This document shows, piece after piece, positions 23 through 12,108 of a stretch of 34,201 bases of DNA. This stretch comes from Thiothrix sp. UBA5583. Lineage in GTDB: Bacteria > Pseudomonadota > Gammaproteobacteria > Thiotrichales > Thiotrichaceae. The stretch is from positions 157,023 through 191,223 of the forward strand of contig DILV01000023.1 of NCBI GenBank assembly GCA_002425225.1, read 5' to 3'. The notes beneath the pieces are model-generated. The model had not been told where the DNA came from. It made no database searches and saw nothing but the letters and a program-made list of their open reading frames with translations. Each line of letters opens with the position of its first letter. Position 1 is the first letter of the stretch. The position numbers were made by a program, and so were the translations under genes.

Positions 23-67
23 AAGCCGCAAGAGCGGCTAACCATCAGCGTAGACCTCCACCAAAGG

Positions 68-532
68 ATGATTGAGTGCGCCCGCGATTTCCGTAAAATC
101 CCCACCCCAAGCGAAGCCCTTTTGTGGCAAGTTCTACGCAACCGCCAAATAGCCGGTTACAAATTCCGCCGCCAACAACCCATTGGAGCTTTTGTCGTGG
201 ACTTCTTCTGTGCCGAACACAATCTAATCGTCGAAGTCGACGGCGCAATCCACGCAACCCAAGAAGCCCACGACCAAGAACGCCAGCACCTGCTCGAATG
301 CTGCGGCTACCAATTCCTGCGCTTCCCCGCCTCCCAAGTAGAACAAAACCTAAACACCATCATCACCACCATCCAAACCCACATCTTATCCCCCTCTCCC
401 CTTGAGGGAGAGGGGCTAGGGGTGAGGGGTAAAGCGCAGCTTGAGGGAGAGGGGCTAGGGGTGAGGGGTAAAGCGCAGCTTGAGGGAGAGGGGCTAGGGG
501 TGAGGGGTACACCGGAGGTGCAACATGCCTGA
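68..532 (+). CDS. DUF559 / endonuclease domain protein with repeat-encoded C-terminus
   Basis: A small PD-(D/E)XK (Vsr-like) nuclease-fold protein of the DUF559 family; cellular role unknown. Residues about 1-110 carry the family hallmarks: ARDFRKIPTPSEALLW near the start, the RRQQPIG segment, and a VDF...IVEVDG acidic core that would supply the metal-binding residues. Residues about 112-148 are not domain but translation of a 39-bp tandem repeat, giving a 13-residue unit (LEGEGLGVRGKAQ) twice and then a shortened third copy. The frame is open upstream to the window edge, so an earlier start is possible; the ATG at 68 fits the usual N-terminus but its AAAGG is too close to be a good ribosome site. 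The last codons overlap the start of dabB by 8 nt (ATGCCTGA), so the two may be translationally coupled by accident of insertion. No restriction-modification partner is visible. Confidence 0.75.
   Translation: MIECARDFRKIPTPSEALLWQVLRNRQIAGYKFRRQQPIGAFVVDFFCAEHNLIVEVDGAIHATQEAHDQERQHLLECCGYQFLRFPASQVEQNLNTIITTIQTHILSPSPLEGEGLGVRGKAQLEGEGLGVRGKAQLEGEGLGVRGTPEVQHA
401..508 (+). repeat. 39-bp tandem repeat, 2.8 copies, in frame with the DUF559 ORF
   Basis: Copies start at 401, 440 and 479. The first two are 39 bp and identical; the third stops after 30 bp. The unit begins CTTGAGGGAGAGGGG and ends AAAGCGCAG. Because 39 is a multiple of three, copy number can change without breaking the ORF. A complementary C-rich arm (CCCCTCTCCC, 391-400) precedes copy 1, so a hairpin with CTTGAGGGAGAGGGG can form. 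The same kind of G-rich element sits at 1-22 and a related one at 21697-21735, which suggests a dispersed REP-like family. Confidence 0.85.
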
Positions 533-2087
533 CTGGTTATTACTCCTAATCCCCGGTTTCCCCTTCTTTGCCGCTGTTTGGATTGTCATCGGCTTCATCT
601 TCGGCTGGAATCGGGGCGAAAAAGGTGAACGTGAAACGGCTTTCGTTGCGGTCACTGCCAATACCCTGAGCCTGCTGATCATGCTGGGAATGGCGATTTA
701 CGATTTTACCCACGGCGCACCGGGGTATGTTGCGTTGTTTCCTTGGCTGCAAAGCGGTACGTATCAGGTTTTCTTCAGCCTGATGCTGGACACCCTGAGC
801 TTAAGTTTCGGGGTGGTAGTGGCAACCATCAACCTGCTGGTGGTGCGCTTTGCAGTCAATTACCTGCACCGTGAAGCCGGTTTCCAGCGGTTTTTCATTG
901 TGATGTCGCTGTTTTCCTGCGCTATGTTGCTGATTGTGTTATCGGGCAGTGCCTTGCTGGGCTTTATCGGTTGGGAAATGGCAGGAATCAGCTCCTACAT
1001 GCTGATTGCTTACGCATGGCAGCGCGAAACCGCGACCGAAGGCGCAACCCGTGCGTTTGTCACCAACCGTTTCGGCGATACCGGCTATTTGTTCGGGATG
1101 TTCATGGCTTTTACGTTGTTCGGCAGTACCGAGTGGAATGTGTTGCTGCAAGATCATGCTAACGAAAGCATTTCCGGCATGGTGTTGGGCATTATGACGC
1201 TGGGTTTCATGTTGGCGGCGCTGGTGAAATCGTCGCAGTTTCCGTTCAGTGCGTGGATCACCCGCGCGCTGGAGGGACCCACACCGTCCAGTGCCGTGTT
1301 TTACGGCGCGGTAATGGTTCATGCGGGCATTTACCTGTTGTTGCGCCTTGAACCCTTGATCGAACAAGTGCCGCTGCTGGGTAATATCTTGCTGCTGATT
1401 GGCAGCCTGACCGTACTGTATGGCTGGCTGGGGGCGCAGGTGCAAACCGACATTAAAAGCTCGCTGATCTTTTCCACCCAACAGCAAACCGGTTTGATGC
1501 TGATTGCTATCGGCTTGGGCTGGTATACGGTTGCCGCGATTCACATGGGGCTGCACGCGATGTGGCGGGCGTATCAGTTCCTGCATTCGCCGTCTTTTCT
1601 GCAACAAACCGGCTGGCAAGCGGCAAAACCTGTCCCAGCGTGGTTACGTAAACAGCATTGGCTGTATACCGCCGCCCTCCAGCGTTTCTGGTTGGTGCCA
1701 CTGGAAAACTGGTTGCTGGTGCGCCCGACCGAAGCACTGGCACGCGAAGCGCAAGCCTTCGATTCCCGCGTGGTCGACCGCATGACCGGCACGCCCTCAC
1801 ACAGCAATATGCTAACCACCTTGGCGGAACTGCAAGCCTTCCAGCAAGGCAAGTTGCGTCTGGAAAGCAGCATTGGCAAAGGCTCAGGCGTGCTCGGCAA
1901 GCTCATGCAGTGGGTCGCCGAACAAATGGAGTGGCTGGAAGACCGGCTACTGTTGAAAAAAGGTGGCGGCGCACTGGGCGAACGCTTGCGTCAATTGGGA
2001 GAAAACCTCGATCTGGTGGAAGAATTGCTCTCCCAACCGCGCTATCTGATGGTATTGATAGCGGCAACCCTTGCCGTTATTTTGTAG
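525..2087 (+). CDS. dabB: DabB/NuoL-like proton-conducting membrane subunit, paralog 1
   Basis: A 520-residue multi-pass inner-membrane protein of the NuoL/MrpA antiporter family, in the type found beside DabA (DUF2309) in energy-coupled CO2 pumps. Key antiporter positions can be picked out: Glu151 in FIGWEMAGISSYML, Lys235 in KSSQFPFSAWITRALEGPTP, Lys311 in TDIKSSLIFST, and Arg348 in LHAMWRAYQFL where NuoL has Lys. After residue about 355 the protein leaves the NuoL pattern: about 150 mostly hydrophilic residues are followed by one final hydrophobic helix (about 507-520). GGAGG at 514-518 precedes the ATG at good spacing. It shares the MPD..LLLLIPG start and most of its length with the second paralog at 5318. 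Role by family knowledge: conducts protons and so drives DabA; inferred here from sequence and adjacency. Confidence 0.88.
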   Translation: MPDWLLLLIPGFPFFAAVWIVIGFIFGWNRGEKGERETAFVAVTANTLSLLIMLGMAIYDFTHGAPGYVALFPWLQSGTYQVFFSLMLDTLSLSFGVVVATINLLVVRFAVNYLHREAGFQRFFIVMSLFSCAMLLIVLSGSALLGFIGWEMAGISSYMLIAYAWQRETATEGATRAFVTNRFGDTGYLFGMFMAFTLFGSTEWNVLLQDHANESISGMVLGIMTLGFMLAALVKSSQFPFSAWITRALEGPTPSSAVFYGAVMVHAGIYLLLRLEPLIEQVPLLGNILLLIGSLTVLYGWLGAQVQTDIKSSLIFSTQQQTGLMLIAIGLGWYTVAAIHMGLHAMWRAYQFLHSPSFLQQTGWQAAKPVPAWLRKQHWLYTAALQRFWLVPLENWLLVRPTEALAREAQAFDSRVVDRMTGTPSHSNMLTTLAELQAFQQGKLRLESSIGKGSGVLGKLMQWVAEQMEWLEDRLLLKKGGGALGERLRQLGENLDLVEELLSQPRYLMVLIAATLAVIL

Positions 2088-2100
2088 GAAAACACCGATA

Positions 2101-5100
2101 ATGACTCACCACAGTCAAGCACAGACCGACCCGTTGACGCAGTTGCGTGAGGCGATTGCGGCGCTGGATGCGGTATTGCCCATCCAAGCACCGTTGCAGG
2201 ATTTTGTGCATTTTAATCCCCTTATGCATTACGAACACCTGCCGTTCGAGCAAGCATTGCGAGCAGCCCATGCCGATAGCGGCTCATTAGGCTATTTGCC
2301 TGCCAGTGAATACCGGCGTTTTTTCCGTGCCGGGCGTATTACCCGTCATGACCTCTTTACTGTCTTGGCGGCTGAGCCGGAACAATGGGCGGAACGCGAA
2401 CTGTATGTCACGGCCCTGAGCAACGATATTAAAGCAATCAGTTTCCAACAAATGCGTTGGCAGGTGGAAGAAAACCACGCGCTGGAACGTTTTCAAAGCG
2501 ATGTAGCCTTTGAACAGCGCGACAAACTGCTGGCAAACAGCGGGCAAACAGAAGCCGAGGCAATTCAGGCATTGTGGGAAACGTGTTTGCAAAAGCTGGA
2601 GCTGGATTACGCCTTGCCGCACCCCGAAACCATGCTCAACTTGCCAGTCAGCGACCTGAACAACGTCTGGGATCACCTCAAGCAGCAAGAGCAATACGGG
2701 CAAACCGTTGCCGATGCGGAAACCTTTATTCACGCCGAAAGCCGTCACTTGCTACACCAGTTACTGGATGATGTCGGTACACGGATTACCCTGCGGGGTT
2801 TGTTGCGCCAACTCGCTGACCTTGATGTACTGGAACACATGCTGCCCTTGCTGGATCGCCATTTTGCCAGTTGGCTGGATCAGGGCATCGCGGCACTGCC
2901 CCCCCAAGCCAACGGTTTTTACGATTACTGGCGCGAAGCCACCTTGCATGACATCACCCTGTCGCTGCACGGGCTGGACAACTGGGCAGACCATATCGAA
3001 TCCTTGCACCCTGACCCCTTGAAAACCATCCATCAGGAATTGATGCGCTTAGGGATAGACAAAGCGCATTGGGCTGGCTACCTACGAGCATTGGCACTGG
3101 AACTGCCCGGTTGGTCGGGAATGTTCAACTGGCGTGCCAAACACCCGCATTACTACGGGTTAAACGCCCCCGTGAGTCTGGAAGATTACCTTGCTGTGCG
3201 CTTGGTGATGGAGCACCTGTACTGCCGCCATTTCACCAGTGAACACTGGCAGATCAATGCCAGCCTGCCCAATATTCGTGGTTACTTCCATCAGCATCAG
3301 GATGAGTTTTTCGTCCGTTATCACACCTACAACAGCAATTTGCCGGAATACCTGCAACACATTGCCCAGCAATTCCTCAATACCGAAGAAGACGTGCAGC
3401 CACACGAATGGCATCAACTGGCACACCAGATTCTTACTTGGAAACTTGCCCCGGAAACCATCCTGCCGATGGGAACGGACATTTACCGCAAGGCATGGCG
3501 GCTGTTCCACTTGGCGCAACACATGGCTCTGGATGCCAACGCGGTGGCACAATTGGAACGGGCGCGAATTGAACAAATGCTGGCAATCCTCGAAGCACTC
3601 GATGACCCGCATACCAGTGGCTATCTGTGGTTACGCGCTTACGAACACCACTACCAAGAAGAAGTGTTCAGCGCACTGTTAAACAAGGAAACTGCACCGG
3701 GATTGTCTGTCCCGCCCGCTGCGCAACTGATTTTCTGCATGGATGACCGCGAAGAAAGCCTGCGCCGTCATCTGGAAGAAATCGCCCCGGATGTGGAAAC
3801 GTTCGGTGCTGCGGGCGTTTTCGGCTTGCCAAACAACTGGCGTGCTCTCGACGCACCACGTCCACTGAAACTGGCACAACCCGTGGTAACAGCCGTTCAC
3901 GAACTCCGCGAAACCCCGACCACCGCCGCACGCCAACGTTTGCCTGCCCATTTGCGACGTTTGCGGGTGCTGAATTGGTTAAAGTACTGGAAAAATCACC
4001 GGGTGCGCCACAGTGTTGTGGGCACTGCCATTAGCCTGCCGCTGCTTGCCCCGTTTGCCGTTTTGGACATGCTAGGGCGCAGTATCATGCCTGCCACCTA
4101 CCAACGCTTACTGAGCAAAGTACAGCAGCGCAGCAGCGTACCGTTGCAAACACGGGTGGCGTATACCGCGACACAAGTGCCGGAATGCCCCAGCGCTGCT
4201 CACAATCAGATCGGCTTCAGTGCGGATGAGAAAGTGGCAAAAGTGGCGAACTTCCTCAAACTGACCGGATTTACCAGTGGCTTTGCCCCTCTAGTGGTGT
4301 TAATGGCGCACCGTTCTCAGCACCTGAATAACCCGCACATCCTCGGTTACGGTTGTGGCGCGTGTAGCGGGCGTTTCGGCGGACCGAATGCACGCGCATT
4401 TGCAGGCATGGCAAATGAACCGGACGTGCGGGTGCAACTGGTGGCGCAACACGCTATCCATATCCCGGCAAGCTGCTGGTTTATCGCCAGCGAACACGAT
4501 ACCAGCAGCGATGACATCGACTGGTTTGATACCGACCTGATTCCGGCAAGCCATCACGCCGTGTTCCAGCGGGTACGTGCTGTGACGGAGCAAGCGGCGC
4601 AGCACTCGGCACTGGAACGTTGCCGTAAGTTTGCCTCTGCCAGCCAGCGGCTTAGCCCACAGCAAGCCAAGCAGCATGTGGCAGGACGTGCCGCTTCCCC
4701 CGATCAGGTGCGGGCAGAACTGGGGCATCAAGGCTGTGCGGTTGCGTTTATCGGGCGGCGCGAACTCAGCAAAGGGATTTTCTGGGATCGGCGTTCCTTC
4801 CTGATTTCCTATGACCCGCACAATGACCCCGATGGCAAATTGCTAGAAGCGCAGTTGCAAGGCAATGGCGTCGTCGGGGTCGGTATCCAGATGGATTATT
4901 ACTTTTCGCGGATGCAAAACGGTTACTTCGGCTCAGGCAGCAAAGCCACCCACAACCTGACCGGCTTGTTTGGGGTGATGGAAGGGGGAGCCAGCGATTT
5001 GCGTACCGGGCTTGCCCAGCAGATGGTGGAGTTGCACGAACCCATGCGCCTGTTAGCCATTGTGGAAGCCGAAGTGGATACCTTGGTGGCAATTTACCAA

Positions 5101-5325
5101 CGTCATGACTATTTGCGTTTATTGCTGGATAACGGTTGGGTGTTGCTAGCAGCGAAACCGCCGGAACGGCAGGAAATTCACCTGTTCCAGCCCGGCAAGG
5201 GGTTTGTGCACTGGCAAGGCGCGGTGCAGCCATTGCCCAAGGTAGCCGCATCGCGTGACTGGTACGCGGATCATGATCGGTATTTGCCACCAGCGGCGAT
5301 TCAGCGGGAGGTGGCTCATGCCTGA
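2101..5325 (+). CDS. dabA: DabA (DUF2309) inorganic-carbon pump catalytic subunit, large form
   Basis: A 1074-residue member of the DUF2309 family, the beta-carbonic-anhydrase-like partner of DabB. DAB complexes are thought to couple cation influx to one-way CO2 hydration, accumulating bicarbonate in the cytoplasm. The four predicted zinc ligands are in the expected spacing: Cys546 and Asp548 in CMDDRE (with Arg550 as the dyad partner), His737 in MAHRSQH, and Cys752 in GYGCGACSGRFGGPNAR, 15 residues after the His as in characterised DabA. It is longer than the roughly 830-residue DabA2 type, and closer to the large (over 1000 residue) class. I chose the ATG at 2101 (AGGA at 2086-2089) rather than a TTG at 2071 that overlaps the previous gene. 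The 3' end overlaps the next dabB by 8 nt. No long hydrophobic helices, so it should be peripheral on the DabB membrane subunits. Confidence 0.93.
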   Translation: MTHHSQAQTDPLTQLREAIAALDAVLPIQAPLQDFVHFNPLMHYEHLPFEQALRAAHADSGSLGYLPASEYRRFFRAGRITRHDLFTVLAAEPEQWAERELYVTALSNDIKAISFQQMRWQVEENHALERFQSDVAFEQRDKLLANSGQTEAEAIQALWETCLQKLELDYALPHPETMLNLPVSDLNNVWDHLKQQEQYGQTVADAETFIHAESRHLLHQLLDDVGTRITLRGLLRQLADLDVLEHMLPLLDRHFASWLDQGIAALPPQANGFYDYWREATLHDITLSLHGLDNWADHIESLHPDPLKTIHQELMRLGIDKAHWAGYLRALALELPGWSGMFNWRAKHPHYYGLNAPVSLEDYLAVRLVMEHLYCRHFTSEHWQINASLPNIRGYFHQHQDEFFVRYHTYNSNLPEYLQHIAQQFLNTEEDVQPHEWHQLAHQILTWKLAPETILPMGTDIYRKAWRLFHLAQHMALDANAVAQLERARIEQMLAILEALDDPHTSGYLWLRAYEHHYQEEVFSALLNKETAPGLSVPPAAQLIFCMDDREESLRRHLEEIAPDVETFGAAGVFGLPNNWRALDAPRPLKLAQPVVTAVHELRETPTTAARQRLPAHLRRLRVLNWLKYWKNHRVRHSVVGTAISLPLLAPFAVLDMLGRSIMPATYQRLLSKVQQRSSVPLQTRVAYTATQVPECPSAAHNQIGFSADEKVAKVANFLKLTGFTSGFAPLVVLMAHRSQHLNNPHILGYGCGACSGRFGGPNARAFAGMANEPDVRVQLVAQHAIHIPASCWFIASEHDTSSDDIDWFDTDLIPASHHAVFQRVRAVTEQAAQHSALERCRKFASASQRLSPQQAKQHVAGRAASPDQVRAELGHQGCAVAFIGRRELSKGIFWDRRSFLISYDPHNDPDGKLLEAQLQGNGVVGVGIQMDYYFSRMQNGYFGSGSKATHNLTGLFGVMEGGASDLRTGLAQQMVELHEPMRLLAIVEAEVDTLVAIYQRHDYLRLLLDNGWVLLAAKPPERQEIHLFQPGKGFVHWQGAVQPLPKVAASRDWYADHDRYLPPAAIQREVAHA

Positions 5326-6871
5326 TGCGTTGTTATTACTGATTCCCGGTTTGCCGTTGCTGGCATTCAGCGTGATCGGCTTATTGACCTTGTTTCGTTG
5401 GAACAAAGGGGATGCCGGTGAACGTTTAAGCGCACGCCTTGCCTTGGGGACGGGGCTTGCCAGTTTGTTGCTGGTGTTGTGGGCGGATGTTACCCATTTT
5501 GCCAGCCCAACGTCACATGTGCCGCTCTTGCCTTGGCTACATAGCGGGGTGTACACCACCAGTATCAGCATGACGGTGGACGGTTTAAGCCTGACATTTG
5601 CCACGCTAATTGCCGTCATCACGCTGTTGGTGACGAGGTTTTCGGTCAATTATTTGCATCGGGAAGCGGGTTTCCAACGCTTTTTCATGGTGTTGATGCT
5701 GTTTGTAGCGGCAATGCAACTGATTGCTTTGTCCGGCAGTGCGATTTTGGCGTTTGTCGGCTGGGAATTGGCAGGGGTGAGTTCCTTCCTGTTGATTGCT
5801 TACAACTGGCAGAGCCGGATTGCCACGGCAAATGCGGTCAGGGCTTTCGTGACTAACCGCATCGGCGATGCCGGATTTTTGCTAGGGATGTTCATGGCGT
5901 TTAGCCTGTTCCACAGTACTGAATGGGATGTGATGCTGGTACCGCAACCGCTGGAATCCGGTTTGCTCATCGGGGTGATGACACTGGGGTTCATGGCAGC
6001 GGCACTGGTGAAATCGGCACAGTTTCCGTTTTCGGGGTGGATTACGCGAGCATTGGAAGGCCCTACGCCATCGAGTACGGTGTTTTACGGTTCGATTATG
6101 GTTCATGCGGGCATTTTCCTGTTGCTGCGCATTCACCCCTTATTGGAACAAGCTCCCCTATTGCAATACCTGTTGTTGCTGTTGGGTGGTTTGACAGTGT
6201 TGTTTGGTTGGCTGGGTGGTTTGGCGCAAACGGACATTAAAACCTCGCTGATGTTTTCGACCTTGGCGCAAACCGGCTTGATGTTGGTCAGCATTGGGCT
6301 GGGTTGGTATACCTTGGCACTGGTGCATCTGGTGTTACATGCCTTGTGGCGGGCTTACCAGTTTTTGCATTCCCCCTCCTTTGCCTTGCATACCCAGTGG
6401 CAGGCTGCCCCGTCAGCACCAGTATGGTTACGCAAACAACGCTGGCTGCATAATGCTGCCTTGCAACGTTTCTGGTTAGACCCGCTGGCGGATTGGTTGT
6501 TGGTGAAACCAACGCTGGCGTTATCACAGGAAACCCAAGTGTTTGACGGGCAGATTCTCGACAAGCTCAGCGGTACACCGGGACATTGCTGCGGCATTTC
6601 GACGCTGGCGGATATGCAAGCCATGCAGCAAGGGCAACAACGTCTGGAAAGTGGTATTGGTACAGGTTCAGGGCTGCTGGGCAAGCTGATGCAGTGGGTG
6701 GCAGAACAACTGGAATGGTTTGAGCAGCGCCTGTTACTGCAACGCGGTGCTGGTCAAGCGCAAGCCTTGCTGGCAGCCTTAAGCCGTTATCAGGACAGGA
6801 TTGAACGTTTGCTCAGCCAGCCGCGCTATTTGGTGCTGTTGGTGGTGGTGACGCTGGTCGTGATTTTTTAG
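5318..6871 (+). CDS. dabB: DabB/NuoL-like proton-conducting membrane subunit, paralog 2
   Basis: A 517-residue paralog of the protein at 525-2087, colinear throughout. The same functional positions are kept: Glu150 (FVGWELAGVSSFLL), Lys232 (KSAQFPFSGWITRALEGPTP), Lys308 (TDIKTSLMFST) and Arg345 (LHALWRAYQFL). It also shares the hydrophilic C-terminal part beginning HSPSF, the GSGLLGKLMQWVAEQ segment and the last membrane helix. ATG 5318 is chosen over upstream in-frame starts because GGGAGGTG (5306-5313) precedes it and because the protein then starts exactly like paralog 1. It overlaps the dabA stop (ATGCCTGA), implying translational coupling. Two copies flanking one dabA suggest either two DabB per complex or alternative partners; this is inference. 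Confidence 0.88.
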   Translation: MPDALLLLIPGLPLLAFSVIGLLTLFRWNKGDAGERLSARLALGTGLASLLLVLWADVTHFASPTSHVPLLPWLHSGVYTTSISMTVDGLSLTFATLIAVITLLVTRFSVNYLHREAGFQRFFMVLMLFVAAMQLIALSGSAILAFVGWELAGVSSFLLIAYNWQSRIATANAVRAFVTNRIGDAGFLLGMFMAFSLFHSTEWDVMLVPQPLESGLLIGVMTLGFMAAALVKSAQFPFSGWITRALEGPTPSSTVFYGSIMVHAGIFLLLRIHPLLEQAPLLQYLLLLLGGLTVLFGWLGGLAQTDIKTSLMFSTLAQTGLMLVSIGLGWYTLALVHLVLHALWRAYQFLHSPSFALHTQWQAAPSAPVWLRKQRWLHNAALQRFWLDPLADWLLVKPTLALSQETQVFDGQILDKLSGTPGHCCGISTLADMQAMQQGQQRLESGIGTGSGLLGKLMQWVAEQLEWFEQRLLLQRGAGQAQALLAALSRYQDRIERLLSQPRYLVLLVVVTLVVIF

Positions 6872-6880
6872 GAGTGGGAC

Positions 6881-8416
6881 ATGACATTTACTGAAATCCC
6901 TAGCCAAACCCCGTTATTGGGGATGCTGCAATTGCTACCGCTCATCACTGGGCTAATCCTAATCAAGGTACGCGGGGAAGCGGCGGTTGCGTTGGGGAGT
7001 ATTGCCGCGCTGGCGCAACTGTTGATGGCGGTGATGCTGTATATCCGCTTTGATACCCAGCAGCCTGCCGGGGTCATGCAGTTTGCCGAGAGCTTTCCCA
7101 TCGTTGGGGCATTCCACTACCACGCCGCCGTCGATGGGATTGGTGTGCTGTTTGTATTGCTAACCAGCTTGATCAGCTTACTCAGCATTGTATTTATTCT
7201 GGTGCGCCGCCTGCATGAAAGCTCGATTCTGGCAGTGATGATGGTGATTCAGGCGATTATTACCAGCCAGTTTGTGACCGTGGATTTGCTGTGGTTCACA
7301 TTTATGTCGCTGCTGGAAGTGCTGTTGATTGCTTATATGACCAAACGCTGGCCGACATTCCACGATATTCAGCCAACACTGGCGCGTTACCTGCAATTCA
7401 TGGCAGTAGGGATTGCCTTGCTGGTGTTTGGCACCTTGGTATTGGGCTGGAATTATGCCGATGCCAATGACGGACGCTGGAGTTTCAGCCTGTATGAATT
7501 GGCGCAACTGGGCTTTGCACCGGGTAGCGTGGTGGCGACGCTGGTATTTTTCGCGCTGTTTTACGGGTTGGGGGTGCGGATTCCGTTATTCCCGCTGCAT
7601 GGCTGGCTACCGAGCTTCATGCACCACGGCAATGTAGCAGTCGCCCCGATTTATTTGCTGGGTTTGAAAGTAGGCATTTACGGTTTGCTGCGCTTTGTAT
7701 TGCCAATCGTGCCCAATGCGGTGTGGGAATGGCATACGATTGCGGTGATTTTTGCCAGCACCGGGGTGTTCTATGCCGCGTTTCTGGCGATGCGTGAGCG
7801 TAATTTGCGGCGTTTACTGGCGTTTGCCGTGGTCAGTCATACCGGGATTTTAACCATTGGCTTGTTTAGCCTGCACCACATGGCGTTTCAGGGGGCAATC
7901 CTACTGGCGTTGAATTTTGGTCTGGCAATTTCAGGGCTAATCCTAATGACTGGGATGGTGTGGCAACGCACCCGCACGACCAATCTTGATAAGCTGGGTG
8001 GCATGTTCGATTACATTCCGGTGGTAGGCTTGGCGTTTTTGGTGGCAGGTTTGGCAGTGGTGGGGATGCCGGGAACACCGGGCTTTGATGCTGTGCATTT
8101 TGTGCTGGAAGGTTCGATCAAGCGTTTCGGGGCATTGGTGACAGTAGCCGCCGCCTTGGGTAACTTGGTGGCGGCTGGGTTTTTATTGCGTTCGTTTCAG
8201 CGGGCGTTTTTGGCACAACCGGGGGGGAATACCAACCGTTGGGATACCAGCCCCACCCATCCGGCGGAAACCCTCATGGCAAGCATTGTGATTACGGTGA
8301 CGGTGGTCGCCGGTTTCTATTCCGCACCCTGGCTGGAGTTGATTGAGCAGCCAGTCAATGGTTTAAGCAGTTTATTTGCGGCAATGAGCGGCGATGCGCC
8401 CGCAGGAGGTCACTGA
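6881..8416 (+). CDS. NuoM-like antiporter subunit A of the dab cluster (divergent active residues)
   Basis: A 511-residue multi-pass membrane protein of the proton-conducting NuoM/MrpD family. Recognisable blocks are GVRIPLFPLHGWLP (about 231-244), GLKVGIYGLLRF (about 261-272) and NLRRLLAFAVVSHTG (about 308-322). Compared with NuoM, the pump Lys of TM7 is Arg233, and the TM12 Glu (PGTGNFVGEF region) lies at His406 in MPGTPGFDAVHF; Lys263 is kept and Glu146 probably corresponds to the TM5 Glu though the local alignment is shifted. The next gene keeps all of these. Ribosome site AGGAG (6870-6874) overlaps the end of dabB paralog 2, so it belongs to the same operon. It may be a structural or altered-coupling subunit rather than a full proton channel; that is inference. 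Confidence 0.85.
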   Translation: MTFTEIPSQTPLLGMLQLLPLITGLILIKVRGEAAVALGSIAALAQLLMAVMLYIRFDTQQPAGVMQFAESFPIVGAFHYHAAVDGIGVLFVLLTSLISLLSIVFILVRRLHESSILAVMMVIQAIITSQFVTVDLLWFTFMSLLEVLLIAYMTKRWPTFHDIQPTLARYLQFMAVGIALLVFGTLVLGWNYADANDGRWSFSLYELAQLGFAPGSVVATLVFFALFYGLGVRIPLFPLHGWLPSFMHHGNVAVAPIYLLGLKVGIYGLLRFVLPIVPNAVWEWHTIAVIFASTGVFYAAFLAMRERNLRRLLAFAVVSHTGILTIGLFSLHHMAFQGAILLALNFGLAISGLILMTGMVWQRTRTTNLDKLGGMFDYIPVVGLAFLVAGLAVVGMPGTPGFDAVHFVLEGSIKRFGALVTVAAALGNLVAAGFLLRSFQRAFLAQPGGNTNRWDTSPTHPAETLMASIVITVTVVAGFYSAPWLELIEQPVNGLSSLFAAMSGDAPAGGH

Positions 8417-9903
8417 TGGCACTATTAACCAGTGTGGAATTTCCCTTGCTGAGCTTGCTGTTATTGCTGTTGCCGTTGGGGGCAGCCTTGACCGCCGTGT
8501 TTCCGGGGCGTGAAGCACGCTGGGCGGCCCTGACAACTGCTGTGCTGGCATTGCTGGTAACGCTGGTGATTGTCGGGCAGTTCGATACCCAACAGGTCGG
8601 TTTCCAATTGGTGGAAAAGACCCCTTGGATGGCGGATGTGGGTATCCATTACCTGCTGGGGGTGGATGGCTTGTCGATCCTGTTCCTGCCGTTTACCGCA
8701 TTGTTGTTCATCGCGGTGATATTGGCGTCGTGGAATGCGATCCGCACCTTGCCGCGTTTGTATTTCGCGCTATTGCTGGTATTGGAATGTACCATCATGG
8801 GCATTTTCACCGCACTGGATACCATCCTATTTTTCCTGTTCTGGGAATTGACGCTGTTACCGCTGTTCTTCCTGATCAGCTTGTGGGGCAATGGTGCCAA
8901 CCGGCGTTATGCAGGGGTGAAATACAGCCTGTTCATGTTGGCGGGTGGCTTGCCGCTGCTGATCGGCTTTGTGGTGCTGGCAATGCATAACCCCAACGGC
9001 ATGAGCTTTTCCTATATCGACTTGCTGCAAGGTAGCCGCGATCACGGGGTGCAGGTGACAGTGTTTTTCCTGTTGCTGCTGGGGTTTGGGGTGAAAATTC
9101 CGCTGTTCCCGCTGCATACTTGGCTGCCATTGGTAGCACAGGAAGGCCCGGCAACCACCGTGGCATTACTGACCGGATTGAAGGTGGGTGCGTATGGTTT
9201 GCTGCGCTTTGCCTTGCCACTCGCACCGGATGCGGCACGCGAATACCAATGGGTGTTGGTGGGCTTGGGGATGATTGGCGTGCTGTATGGCGCAGTCGCG
9301 GCATTGAGCCAAACCAGTTTGCGGCGGATGCTGGCGTTTTCCTCACTCAGTCACGTGGGGTTGGTGGTGCTGGGGATTGCGGCATTCAGTGTGCAGGGGG
9401 TGCAAGGGGCAGTGTTTCAGTTGCTGAATTTCACGGTGGTCGCGGGTGGTTTGTTTCTGATTACCGGCTTTTTGCATCAGCGCACCGGTTCAACCGAAGT
9501 CTTGAGTCTGGGCGGGGTGGCGAAATCCATGCCCTTGCTGGCATCGCTGTTCTTCTTCCTCGGTCTGGCGGGGATCGGAATGCCTGCCACCAGCGGCTTT
9601 CCGGCTGAATTCCTGCTGATTGTCAGCGTATTGGAAACCCATACCGGCGCGGGGCTGGTGGTGCTGTTCGTGGTGATTCTGGGGGCGGCGTATTTCCTCA
9701 ATTTCTTCCGCAAGGCATTTTTAGGGGAAACCCGCCACGATATTATCCGTGATGCGCCGGATTTGAAACCGCGTGAACTGGCAGTATTGCTGGTGCTGGT
9801 TGTGGTGGTGCTGGTGTTCGGGTTCTATCCGCAAGCGATTTTGGATGTGACGGAAACCAGCAGCCAATATTGGGTGAGTTTGATGTTGCCAACAGGCAAC
9901 TAG
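8416..9903 (+). CDS. NuoM-like antiporter subunit B of the dab cluster
   Basis: A 495-residue NuoM-family membrane protein with the complete set of expected proton-path residues: Glu144 (FLFWELTLLPLFFLI), Lys227 (GFGVKIPLFPLHTWLP), Lys256 (GLKVGAYGLLRF) and Glu398 (GMPATSGFPAEFLL), plus TSLRRMLAFSSLSHVG at 300-315. The ATG shares one base with the stop of the preceding gene (TGATG), so translation is coupled. No other complex I genes (nuoA-K, NADH or quinone modules) are near, which argues that this and its neighbours serve the DabA system, not respiration. It ends the + strand block; its stop is only 7 bp from the convergent fimT stop and I see no clear terminator between them. Confidence 0.88.
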   Translation: MALLTSVEFPLLSLLLLLLPLGAALTAVFPGREARWAALTTAVLALLVTLVIVGQFDTQQVGFQLVEKTPWMADVGIHYLLGVDGLSILFLPFTALLFIAVILASWNAIRTLPRLYFALLLVLECTIMGIFTALDTILFFLFWELTLLPLFFLISLWGNGANRRYAGVKYSLFMLAGGLPLLIGFVVLAMHNPNGMSFSYIDLLQGSRDHGVQVTVFFLLLLGFGVKIPLFPLHTWLPLVAQEGPATTVALLTGLKVGAYGLLRFALPLAPDAAREYQWVLVGLGMIGVLYGAVAALSQTSLRRMLAFSSLSHVGLVVLGIAAFSVQGVQGAVFQLLNFTVVAGGLFLITGFLHQRTGSTEVLSLGGVAKSMPLLASLFFFLGLAGIGMPATSGFPAEFLLIVSVLETHTGAGLVVLFVVILGAAYFLNFFRKAFLGETRHDIIRDAPDLKPRELAVLLVLVVVVLVFGFYPQAILDVTETSSQYWVSLMLPTGN

Positions 9904-9910
9904 CCAGGGT

Positions 9911-10498
9911 CTAACACCCGGCGTTCCCCACCTTGCAGGAAGCGACCCTGCCAGTAATCGGCTTTACGTCCACTTTGTAAACAACATCGCTGCCACGGCG
10001 CACTTCCAGCGTACCATTGAAGGAGGCATTGCCATTCGGCAGGTAGCGGATTGCCCTCCCCAACGTGGCATTCGCTGTAGCCGGGCGTACCGTCAGGTTA
10101 TCCACCTTGGAAGGTGCGTCTTCGCTCAGGACAAGCTCAGGAGCTTCCGCAGTACCGTTGCCGTCAAAGTCACAGACATTGCCAGCATCAATGACCGTAT
10201 CTGCATCACAATCGACGAAAATCACCCAGCCATCTTCAAACCCCGTACCTGTAGCAGCCGTGGTGGCAGTTGCACAACTGCCATCTGCTTCACGGGCGCA
10301 CATTGTCACCGGAAAGGCGCGTTTGACCGCTTCCGAGCGGGCGTAATGAACTGCGGAAACCATCTGGTTATTGATGGCATTGAGCCGGTTGTTTTCCATC
10401 ATGCTGCTGAGGGAAGGGGCTGCTACGGTAGCAAGTATGGCAACGATGGCGATCGTCACCATCAACTCGACGAGAGTCATACCTTGTTGTGTTTTCAT
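9911..10498 (-). CDS. fimT: GspH/FimT-family type IV minor pseudopilin
   Basis: A 195-residue prepilin. The N-terminus has the short leader MKTQQG, then MTLVELMVTIAIVAILATVA, the class III signal: cleavage after Gly6 by the prepilin peptidase and Glu at mature position 5, followed by the hydrophobic assembly helix. The rest matches the FimT/GspH layout: SEAVKRAFPVTMC, GWVIFVDCD, and a basic C-terminal end with a Cys pair (VASCKVGNAGC). FimT-type pilins help prime type IV pili and, in some species, bind DNA during uptake; the presence of dprA in this window makes that link attractive but unproven. It lies alone, 158 bp after trkH on the same strand, with no other pilus gene nearby. The symbol is a family-level assignment. 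Confidence 0.85.
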   Translation of the reverse strand: MKTQQGMTLVELMVTIAIVAILATVAAPSLSSMMENNRLNAINNQMVSAVHYARSEAVKRAFPVTMCAREADGSCATATTAATGTGFEDGWVIFVDCDADTVIDAGNVCDFDGNGTAEAPELVLSEDAPSKVDNLTVRPATANATLGRAIRYLPNGNASFNGTLEVRRGSDVVYKVDVKPITGRVASCKVGNAGC

Positions 10499-10656
10499 GA
10501 TGCTTTCCGTTACAGATAGTTATTTTTTGATTCAGGAAAGAGAAGGCGTCCATGCCAAGCACGTACTTCCTTATTGGCAATCAGTATACGTGGCTACTGG
10601 CAGCAGGAGGACGGCTGATAGATAAACGGCCTTTTCAGGCAGACCAACAAACAGGC

Positions 10657-12108
10657 TCAACGCCGCCAAAACGCTGGAGTCAACAGCACCAGTACCGTCA
10701 TCAGTTCCAGTCGCCCCATGATCATGCACAACGCCAACCACCATTTGGCGAAATCGCTCAAATCGGCAAAGTTGGAAGACACATCCCCCAGCCCCAGCCC
10801 CATATTGTTGATGGTAGCCGCAACCGCTGAAAAAGCCGTCACCTGATTCTGCCCATCTGCCATCAGACCCAGCATGAAAATCATGAACAAAGCTGCGTAG
10901 ATGAAAAAGAAGCCCCACACCGCTTTCACAATCTGCTCATCAATCACCTGCCCGTTGACCTTGATTGGCATGTGCGCACGCGGGTGCACCAGCAGGTTGA
11001 TTTCGCGGACAGCCTGCTTGATCAGCAACAAAAACCGGATAGCCTTCATCCCCCCGCCCGTCGAGCCGGAACACCCCCCACTTGTAACCAGTAGCGTAAT
11101 GAAAATGGGCAGAAATGACGGCCACACGGAATGGTCGCCCAGAAACAGGCCGGTGCTGGTCATGACCGAGACCACATGCACGGCAGAATAACGCAAGGCA
11201 TCAGATACATCGGGGTAGGTTCCATAAGCATACAAGCTAACCGCCACCAGCAGGATGGCTCCTAATGTCAGGGCTGTATAAAAACGAAACTCGGAATCCT
11301 CCAGATAGGGTTTCAAGCTGACACCACGCCAGGCAATGAAATGCAGGCCAAAGTTCGCACCTGCCAGAAACATGAAGATCACCGCAATGTAATGGATCGC
11401 AGGGCTGTCAAAAAAAGCCAGGCTGGAATCATGATTGGAAAACCCACCAGTCCCCAGCACTGAGAAACTGTGACCCACAGCATCAAACCAGTCCATGCCT
11501 GCCAGCCGGAACGCAACCGCACACAGGATGGTCAGAATCAGGTAGGTGTACCACAGCAGCTTGGCTGTTTCCGCAATGCGCGGCTCCAGTTTGGCATCCT
11601 TGACCGGGCCCGGGGTCTCTGCCTTGTAAATCTGCATCCCCCCGACCCCCAGCATGGGCAGGATTGCCACAGCCAGCACGATGATCCCCATTCCTCCCAG
11701 CCAGTGCAGCTCGACTCGCCAGAACAGGATGGAACGTGGGAAACCATCCAACCCTATATAAACGGTTGCCCCTGTCGTTGTCAGCCCGGAAGTCGCTTCA
11801 AACACACCATTAGTGAAACTGGACGCAACCGCATCGGAAAAGACGAAGGGTAGCGCCCCCGCCATGCTCAGAACCACCCAGAACAGCGTCACCAGCAGAA
11901 AACCGTCACGGGTACGCAATACGGCATGTACCCGCCGCACCGGCAGCCACAAGACACCACCAATCACTAGCAGAATAGCGCCTGATTTCCAGAAAGGCAT
12001 CAGATCCGGGTCGCCCATCAGCCAGCCCACCATGATGGGCGGCAGCATGGTCAGGCTGAACAGCATCAGCAATAACCCGAGAATTCGCTGGATGACCCTG
12101 AATTGCAT
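10657..12108 (-). CDS. trkH: Trk potassium uptake channel subunit TrkH
   Basis: A 483-residue inner-membrane K+ transporter, the normal length for TrkH. The four selectivity-filter loops are visible: SGLTTTGATV, VLGTGGFSNHDS, VMTSTGLFLGD and INNMGLGLGD, together with the glycine-rich SGGCSGSTGGGMK turn before the last third. It works with the cytoplasmic gating subunit TrkA, whose gene ends 8 bp upstream, so the two are co-transcribed. The short space after the stop contains a weak GCCT-GAAA-AGGC stem-loop around 10630-10641 but no convincing U-tract. Confidence 0.95.
   Translation of the reverse strand: MQFRVIQRILGLLLMLFSLTMLPPIMVGWLMGDPDLMPFWKSGAILLVIGGVLWLPVRRVHAVLRTRDGFLLVTLFWVVLSMAGALPFVFSDAVASSFTNGVFEATSGLTTTGATVYIGLDGFPRSILFWRVELHWLGGMGIIVLAVAILPMLGVGGMQIYKAETPGPVKDAKLEPRIAETAKLLWYTYLILTILCAVAFRLAGMDWFDAVGHSFSVLGTGGFSNHDSSLAFFDSPAIHYIAVIFMFLAGANFGLHFIAWRGVSLKPYLEDSEFRFYTALTLGAILLVAVSLYAYGTYPDVSDALRYSAVHVVSVMTSTGLFLGDHSVWPSFLPIFITLLVTSGGCSGSTGGGMKAIRFLLLIKQAVREINLLVHPRAHMPIKVNGQVIDEQIVKAVWGFFFIYAALFMIFMLGLMADGQNQVTAFSAVAATINNMGLGLGDVSSNFADLSDFAKWWLALCMIMGRLELMTVLVLLTPAFWRR

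Follow-up and report, generated by a model that had tools for sequence, protein, structure and literature searches.

Why are DabA proteins in a Thiothrix genome surrounded by so many antiporter-type membrane subunits, and might their products act together? We addressed this question for a gene cluster of Thiothrix sp. UBA5583 (assembly GCA_002425225.1). The window is a stretch of 34,201 nt (contig DILV01000023.1, positions 157,023–191,223; G000:C16:157023-191223 in our numbering), and upstream DNA of the same contig was read as L003 (C16:140000-158000). An earlier note, made from the window alone, had described a five-gene unit dabB-dabA-dabB-NuoM-NuoM. These five genes were located as described, all on the plus strand, and Pfam assigns one of them to PF10070 and four to PF00361. 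As a unit, however, the arrangement results from where the window begins: when the genome was searched with PF10070, a second DabA was located just upstream of the window, and this gene (A1) and a NuoM-like gene (M0) belong to the cluster. The full cluster comprises two DabA (A1, A2), two DabB (Bn, Bc) and three NuoM-like (M0, M1, M2) genes in the order M0-dabA-[NACHT, DUF559 genes]-dabB-dabA-dabB-M1-M2, downstream of Rubisco and alpha-carboxysome genes (Table 1). Judged from sequence, the cluster probably encodes an enlarged DAB/DAC-type CO2-hydrating pump, driven by an ion gradient and equipped with a complex-I-like membrane arm.

A recurring unit of five genes

The recurring unit consists of one DabA, one DabB and three NuoM-like proteins, encoded in the order M0-dabA-dabB-M1-M2. 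Among 53 fetched loci with a linked NuoM, in which count the window genome makes two entries, the unit was contiguous in 34, from 18 genome families; it is thus not a chance arrangement. The remaining loci were nine with a doubled dabA-dabB pair, one with an extra DabA, and nine that were incomplete, split or truncated where a contig or locus ended. With gene starts estimated from alignments, junctions of at most 50 nt were found between dabA and dabB in 53/60 cases, dabB and M1 in 48/49, M1 and M2 in 49/51, and M0 and dabA in 41/46. The genome search for a five-gene order that the earlier note had proposed therefore did return a recurring five-gene unit, in an order other than that seen in the window, and the finding named there as refuting, NuoM genes that always lie elsewhere, is contradicted by the 34 contiguous loci. 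Its suggestion of up to four antiporter-type subunits per DabA is supported in number, the parts being one DabB and three NuoM-like proteins; of the two DabBs in the window, Bn pairs with the second DabA, A1.

Recurrence also bears on the proposal that the NuoM-like genes encode complex I subunits, spare or alternative, and adjoin dabAB only by chance, which we regard as very improbable. In its favor, M0 is sister to complex-I-type NuoM (see below), but the same gene order is found in 18 genome families, M1 is degenerate at fixed positions, and complex-I-type NuoL, NuoM and NuoN are encoded on a different contig, C4. Their presence there rules out the window NuoMs as the organism's only complex-I-type copies. 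None of the window cluster genes encodes another nuo subunit.

A search for M1 (E ≤ 1e-40) recovered it in 16/16 genomes of the genus, 9/20 others of the family and 0/21 from other families of the class. Among the 15 genus relatives read, nine had two dabA-dabB pairs and six had one; cluster-bearing relatives are Thiothrix caldifontis, T. fructosivorans, T. lacustris and Candidatus T. singaporensis. DabA was present in 68/274 genomes drawn over the class, from which 80 listed DabA places were fetched (leaving out the two of the window genome itself, as well as 13 smaller fragments). Fifteen of these 80 loci carry a DabA with His at the position of Leu658 in the characterized pump DAB2, and in nine of them M1-M2 was contiguous with dabA-dabB, with M0 as well in seven; in L113 and L130, which have M1-M2 beside dabA-dabB, the contig ends where M0 would be. 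In L088 and L089, which come from two genomes of the same genus, a single reading frame encodes both DabB and M1. In L112 the contig ends after M0-DabA, and L118, L125 and L128 are without the unit. The unit was found in none of the 65 class-draw loci without a His658 DabA, among which L065 lies beside an Mrp-type cluster, L104 shows a weak match to part of NuoM, and L103 has complex-I-type genes on the opposite strand. In a larger class draw M1 was found (E ≤ 1e-70) in 17/369 genomes, and DabA was present in 53/249 genomes drawn over the phylum. Twenty further loci were chosen non-randomly, namely 15 from other classes with long or split DabA (out of 34 such genomes, gene order being read in these 15 only), four genomes from the phylum or larger class draws, and one short-DabA control; the five genes were contiguous in 16/20.

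The DabA clade and its active site

The DAB2 and NuoL residue numbers used are those of the paper on the DAB2 structure (DabA2-DabB2 of Halothiobacillus neapolitanus, PDB 9rd0; PMC13144422). In a FastTree phylogeny of 132 DabAs with midpoint rooting, from which one short and one cut sequence were left out, the 65 DabAs with His658 form one clade, with support of 0.83 when L118 and L128 are included and 1.0 when they are not. A2 is an old, long-branched paralog of A1 within this clade, and it groups with two sequences from outside Thiothrix; the window genome's two dabA-dabB pairs are thus not a recent copy, and the tree rules out a recent tandem duplication as their origin. Outside Thiothrix, A2-type DabAs that group with A2 stand alone in L125 (G019, 7426-10695) and L039 (G028, 1072-4362), the one separate from an M-type cluster and the other divergent to such a cluster.

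Both A1 and A2 match positions 2-747 of the 747 in the PF10070 profile. The metal ligands named earlier for A2, Cys546, Asp548, His737 and Cys752, occur without variation in six aligned Thiothrix copies, and they align with C351, D353, H524 and C539 of DAB2. Across linked DabAs (those of the NuoM-associated type) with letters at these positions, C351, D353 and R355 were kept in 65/65 and H524 and C539 in 66/66, leaving the zinc ligands and the Asp-Arg dyad intact. Their neighbors differ from DAB2. In the first set, His stood at position 658 in 43/43 DabAs with NuoM in the locus and Leu in 55/55 of the plain DabB-DabA type; five further DabAs without NuoM in the locus also had His. In the later set, His658 was found in 18/18 linked-type DabAs, and the control had Leu. 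Leu658 of DAB2 replaces the transition-state Gln of beta-carbonic anhydrases (PMC13144422). The position of Ser356, part of the proton relay proposed for DAB2 (PMC13144422), is Glu in 65/65 linked DabAs and Ser in 68/68 others.

These substitutions could mean that the enlarged complex handles another substrate or reaction, such as bicarbonate or cation transport or pH control, rather than CO2 hydration, and MpsAB has been termed a bicarbonate transporter in the available literature. We consider this distinctly improbable given the catalytic residues kept in all 65 linked DabAs with letters there and the carboxysome genes beside the cluster in UBA5583. Family identity points to CO2 hydration as the likely reaction.

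DabB and the NuoM-like proteins

The complex-I residue Glu144 is present in 44/44 linked DabBs and in 0/62 others; its counterpart in DabB2 of DAB2 is Ile151 (PMC13144422). Bn keeps E144, R175, D178 and K229 of NuoL and has Tyr at H254 and Arg at K342, and Bc has an identical pattern. The linked pattern (Glu144, Tyr254, Arg342) was also seen in the DabBs of L088, L089 and L128 and in 16/16 of the later set.

For the NuoM-like proteins we assumed residue numbers and a motif mapping that we take to hold for NuoM. M0 kept all six tested positions in 30/30 sequences and again in 16/16 of the later set. In M2, E144, K234, K265 and E407 were kept in 32/35 and then in 17/17 sequences; the three exceptions were one cut protein, one fragment and one divergent protein in L118. 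M1 had no Glu at 144 or 407 and had Arg at 234 in 34/34 sequences, in 17/17 of the later set and in both fusions. In a tree, M0 was sister to complex-I-type NuoM (0.98), and M1 and M2 were sisters (0.96), with the divergent L118 protein apart. M1, which lost the proton-path charges, is probably not a conducting subunit, which leaves no more than two of the three NuoMs that look capable of conduction.

Such losses are hard to square with the main competing explanation, which we judge unlikely though worth serious attention: DabA and DabB would form a two-part pump, and M0, M1 and M2 would make up an antiporter of their own, for protons or cations, whose co-expression would restore pH or membrane potential as CO2 hydration acidifies the cytoplasm. 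With their channel residues kept, M0 and M2 could act as antiporters, but a subunit without channel charges, such as M1, would be odd in one. In L128 no NuoM partner was found for DabA-DabB, and the DabA of L065 adjoins an Mrp-type antiporter cluster, so such neighbors do occur. Against separation stand the single frame of DabB and M1 in L088 and L089, the Glu144 ion-pair residue retained in linked DabBs and lost in stand-alone ones, and the interleaving of the genes, with M0 before dabA, M1-M2 after dabB, and DabB between M2 and M1 in G452 and G456. In the window the junctions measure 13, -8, 9 and -1 nt, in line with the overlaps or gaps under 15 bp reported before; with none above 13 nt, the window cluster has no room for small Mrp subunits.

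Broken clusters

We followed up eight genomes in which the cluster is broken or deviates. All five parts were present in six of them (G019, G103, G233, G452, G456 and G596), in various arrangements. G103 and G233 have DabA with the DabB-M1 single frame, and M0 and M2 apart. In G452 and G456, M0-M2-DabB-M1 lie together and DabA is on another contig, M0 of G456 being cut by the contig end. G596 has M0-DabA, DabB and M1-M2 at three separate places, and in G019 M0-DabB-M1-M2 lie together, the DabA, of the A2 type, being on another contig. Together with the fusion and the residue patterns, this retention of parts suggests that the five proteins assemble physically.

Link to carbon fixation

The earlier note had seen no Rubisco or carboxysome genes in the window; the Rubisco, CsoS2 and CsoSCA genes lie just outside it, approximately 15–21 kb upstream. 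The Rubisco large subunit (PF00016) was found in 21/26 same-class holders of the cluster and in 0/15 other-class holders tested, and the ATP-citrate lyase domain PF16114 in 11/15 other-class and 0/10 same-class holders tested. The marker sought was thus absent from 5/26 same-class and 4/15 other-class holders, which bears in favor of a substrate other than CO2. Over the phylum draw, PF16114 was present in 36/249 genomes: 23/34 of the other-class genomes with long or split DabA, 0/10 with short DabA, and 13 without DabA. All these distributions, the ATP-citrate lyase link included, are confounded by shared ancestry, as are the residue patterns. The carbon link fits, without proving, a role in autotrophic carbon supply that is not tied to one pathway.

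Proposed mechanism

In the pump that we favor, DabA would be seated on the NuoL-like DabB and convert CO2 to bicarbonate, the hydration being driven by inward flow of an ion, most likely the proton, across the membrane. The three NuoM-like proteins would lengthen the membrane part into a complex-I-like arm that has neither a quinone nor an NADH module. Ion conduction is probably the task of M0 and M2; M1, its channel charges lost, is probably a scaffold or coupling piece, and we place it beside DabB because of the DabB-M1 fusion. The kept Glu144 network of DabB would be the coupling face, replaced by Ile151 in DabB2. Bicarbonate would feed the carboxysome here; where related holders lack Rubisco, its probable destination is the reductive tricarboxylic acid (TCA) cycle. 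The UBA5583 genome has two DabA-DabB pairs and a single NuoM set, which suggests that the pairs may serve as interchangeable heads sharing that set. We infer ion coupling, ion identity and stoichiometry; it is possible that more cations pass per CO2 through the added subunits. A stronger form of the proposal can be put forward only tentatively: an NADH-free, five-protein, complex-I-like machine, with DabA on a four-module arm (DabB, M1, M2, M0) and two or three working ion channels per CO2 hydration, which would concentrate bicarbonate more steeply, or at a lower membrane energy, than a two-part DAB could, have two different DabA-DabB heads sharing the arm in this Thiothrix, and constitute a separately evolved counterpart of the cyanobacterial NDH-1 CO2 pumps that serves Calvin-cycle and reductive-TCA autotrophs alike.

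Several observations weigh against the favored reading. In 44/44 linked DabBs, Tyr takes the place of H254 and Arg that of K342, and H260 and K347 of DAB2's DabB, the equivalents of these residues, matter (PMC13144422). The H348 column holds Phe or Leu in M2 and M1, mostly Phe in M2. The finger Glu444, essential in DAB2 (PMC13144422), is not clearly kept: an acid occurs within the finger in 26/65 linked DabAs and 68/68 others, a count that is free of register, the register itself (finger sequences, local realignment) being uncertain; with that uncertainty, alignment gives A2 an Asp, and A1 has no acid. Because 24/423 DabB and 16/643 DabA columns separate linked from other proteins, the named signature residues are a few of several and trace one clade split. 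AlphaFold2 models of M1 and A2 had a mean predicted local distance difference test score (pLDDT) of 41.7 and 34.4, from alignments of seven and six rows. Rubisco is no commoner in listed linked-type genomes of the class draw (11/16) than in other DabA holders (36/52); it was present in 95/206 genomes without DabA. Finally, G282 (L128) has linked-type DabA-DabB and only a complex-I-like NuoM match in its genome, and G105 (L118) has linked-type DabA-DabB with one divergent NuoM-like neighbor only. L128 and L118 being without the full NuoM set, the residue type has no strict need of the NuoMs; the DabAs of both branch outside the other linked-type DabAs, and both genomes are less than 90% complete.

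Comparison with known systems

Complexes of one to three subunits were reportedly described in a 2021 study. Cyanobacterial NDH-1 CO2 pumps use Cup proteins where the cluster has DabA. The parallel with these CO2-uptake complexes lies in vectorial CO2 hydration coupled to a complex-I-type arm (PMC10880623); by contrast, the cluster lacks an electron-input module and an NdhF3-type subunit, and DabA would be the hydrating part. Both DabBs are nearest to NuoL over approximately the first 360 residues, below the NuoL cut-off (NCBIfam), and score 157.6 and 145.8 bits against the NdhF3 profile TIGR01960 (cut-off 588.7), so neither is of the NdhF3 type. The cluster also differs from respiratory complex I, as it is not in a nuo operon with NADH and quinone modules, and from Mrp antiporters, whose small subunits are not in the window cluster.

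With DAB2 (PMC13144422) the cluster shares the zinc ligands and the Asp-Arg dyad, an adjacent NuoL-like DabB, and a CO2 hydration that is likely gradient-driven. It falls outside this two-part type in adding three NuoM-like, antiporter-type subunits, in having dabA precede dabB, in the His and Glu of DabA for Leu658 and Ser356 and the finger Glu not clearly kept, and in a DabB with Glu144 kept (Ile151 in DabB2) and Tyr and Arg for H254 and K342. The premise that characterized DAB pumps need one DabA and one DabB was too narrow, since DAB1 has been called a three-subunit complex (PMC13144422). DAB1 of H. neapolitanus likewise belongs to an extended alpha-carboxysome locus with CbbO (PMC13144422, PMC4633670); in the available text its third protein is small, hypothetical and not a NuoM, and a second and third extra membrane subunit are absent.

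A NuoM beside the ybcC/nuoL family has been known since 2017, when "clade C" operons of ybcC and nuoL with NuoM (COG1008) and SulP (COG0659) were described (PMC5700660). As here, NuoM genes adjoin dabA homologs upstream of nuoL homologs; the accessible part of that paper does not give a three-NuoM count, a fixed order, residue signatures, a fusion or a CO2 role. L065 (G060, 44-11951, minus strand) encodes a SulP permease, DabA, MnhE, an MbhD/E-like protein, MnhB and three PF00361 proteins, without an ordinary DabB, and this SulP-DabA-Mrp-type locus also fits the "clade C" wording (PMC5700660). Our literature search turned up no account of a DAB containing three NuoM proteins, which is weak evidence, most subscription papers lying outside its coverage; the five-part set is apparently undescribed.

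Genes of the locus

Upstream of the cluster, the genes for the Rubisco large and small subunits, CsoS2 and the carboxysome shell carbonic anhydrase (CsoSCA) are followed by those for a CaMKII_AD/SnoaL-like protein, a VWA protein taken as CbbO, and a 404-aa protein with a weak LCIB-like match, which lies between the CbbO-like gene and M0. Families with carbonic anhydrases include Pfam08332 (PMC10880623), to which the CaMKII_AD/SnoaL-like protein belongs. Bn and Bc are 62% identical. Between A1 and Bn lie the NACHT/HEAT-repeat and DUF559 genes. A related insert (45% match over approximately half) is found in L019 and L030 and DUF559 alone in L017 and L033, and A1 and Bn are adjacent, without the insert, in the remaining relatives. 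The C-terminal part of the DUF559 protein contains three near-identical EGEGLGVRG stretches (window ~440-520), and a similar repeat precedes the gene, beside an N run (L003:16805-17023). A convergent GspH/type IV pilin-like gene marks the 3' border of the cluster.

Table 1. Cluster genes and their neighbors in Thiothrix sp. UBA5583, with positions in the window or in L003
Feature	Position	Strand	Assignment
CaMKII_AD/SnoaL-like protein	L003:3838-4305	+	PF08332, 49.6 bits
404-aa protein	L003:6675-7889	-	PF18599 (LCIB-type carbonic anhydrases), 23.3 bits, weak, below cut-off 25
M0	L003:8006-9481		NuoM-like; upstream of window
dabA A1	L003:9484-12726		PF10070, 806 bits; upstream of window
NACHT/HEAT-repeat protein, 1339 aa	L003:12719-16738	+	
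DUF559 protein	window 68-532	+	DUF559
dabB Bn, 520 aa	window 525-2087	+	PF00361 + PF00662; NuoL-like membrane partner of DabA
dabA A2, 1074 aa	window 2101-5325 (ATG at 2101)	+	PF10070, 681 bits; beta-carbonic-anhydrase-like cytoplasmic subunit
dabB Bc, 517 aa	window 5318-6871 (8 nt overlap with A2)	+	PF00361 + PF00662
M1, 511 aa	window 6881-8416	+	Divergent NuoM-like; PF00361; TIGR01972, 269 bits (cut-off 264)
M2, 495 aa	window 8416-9903	+	NuoM-like; PF00361; TIGR01972, 461 bits (cut-off 264)
GspH/type IV pilin-like gene	window 9911-10498	-	

Biological meaning

Gradient-driven, one-way CO2 hydration in DAB pumps is only now emerging from the DAB2 structure, and the clade described here forms a natural counterpoint to it: the zinc enzyme is the same but has altered active-site neighbors, DabB retains the ion-pair residues of complex I, and three antiporter-type subunits have been added, of which one is apparently dead. 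Direct tests thereby become possible of how many ions pass per CO2 and of how antiporter modules are coupled to a reaction other than electron transfer. The five-part set is also found in numerous other bacteria, a fair share of them carbon fixers. Should the larger pump operate at lower membrane energy, this would matter for sulfur-oxidizing and reductive-TCA autotrophs and for engineered carbon-concentrating systems.

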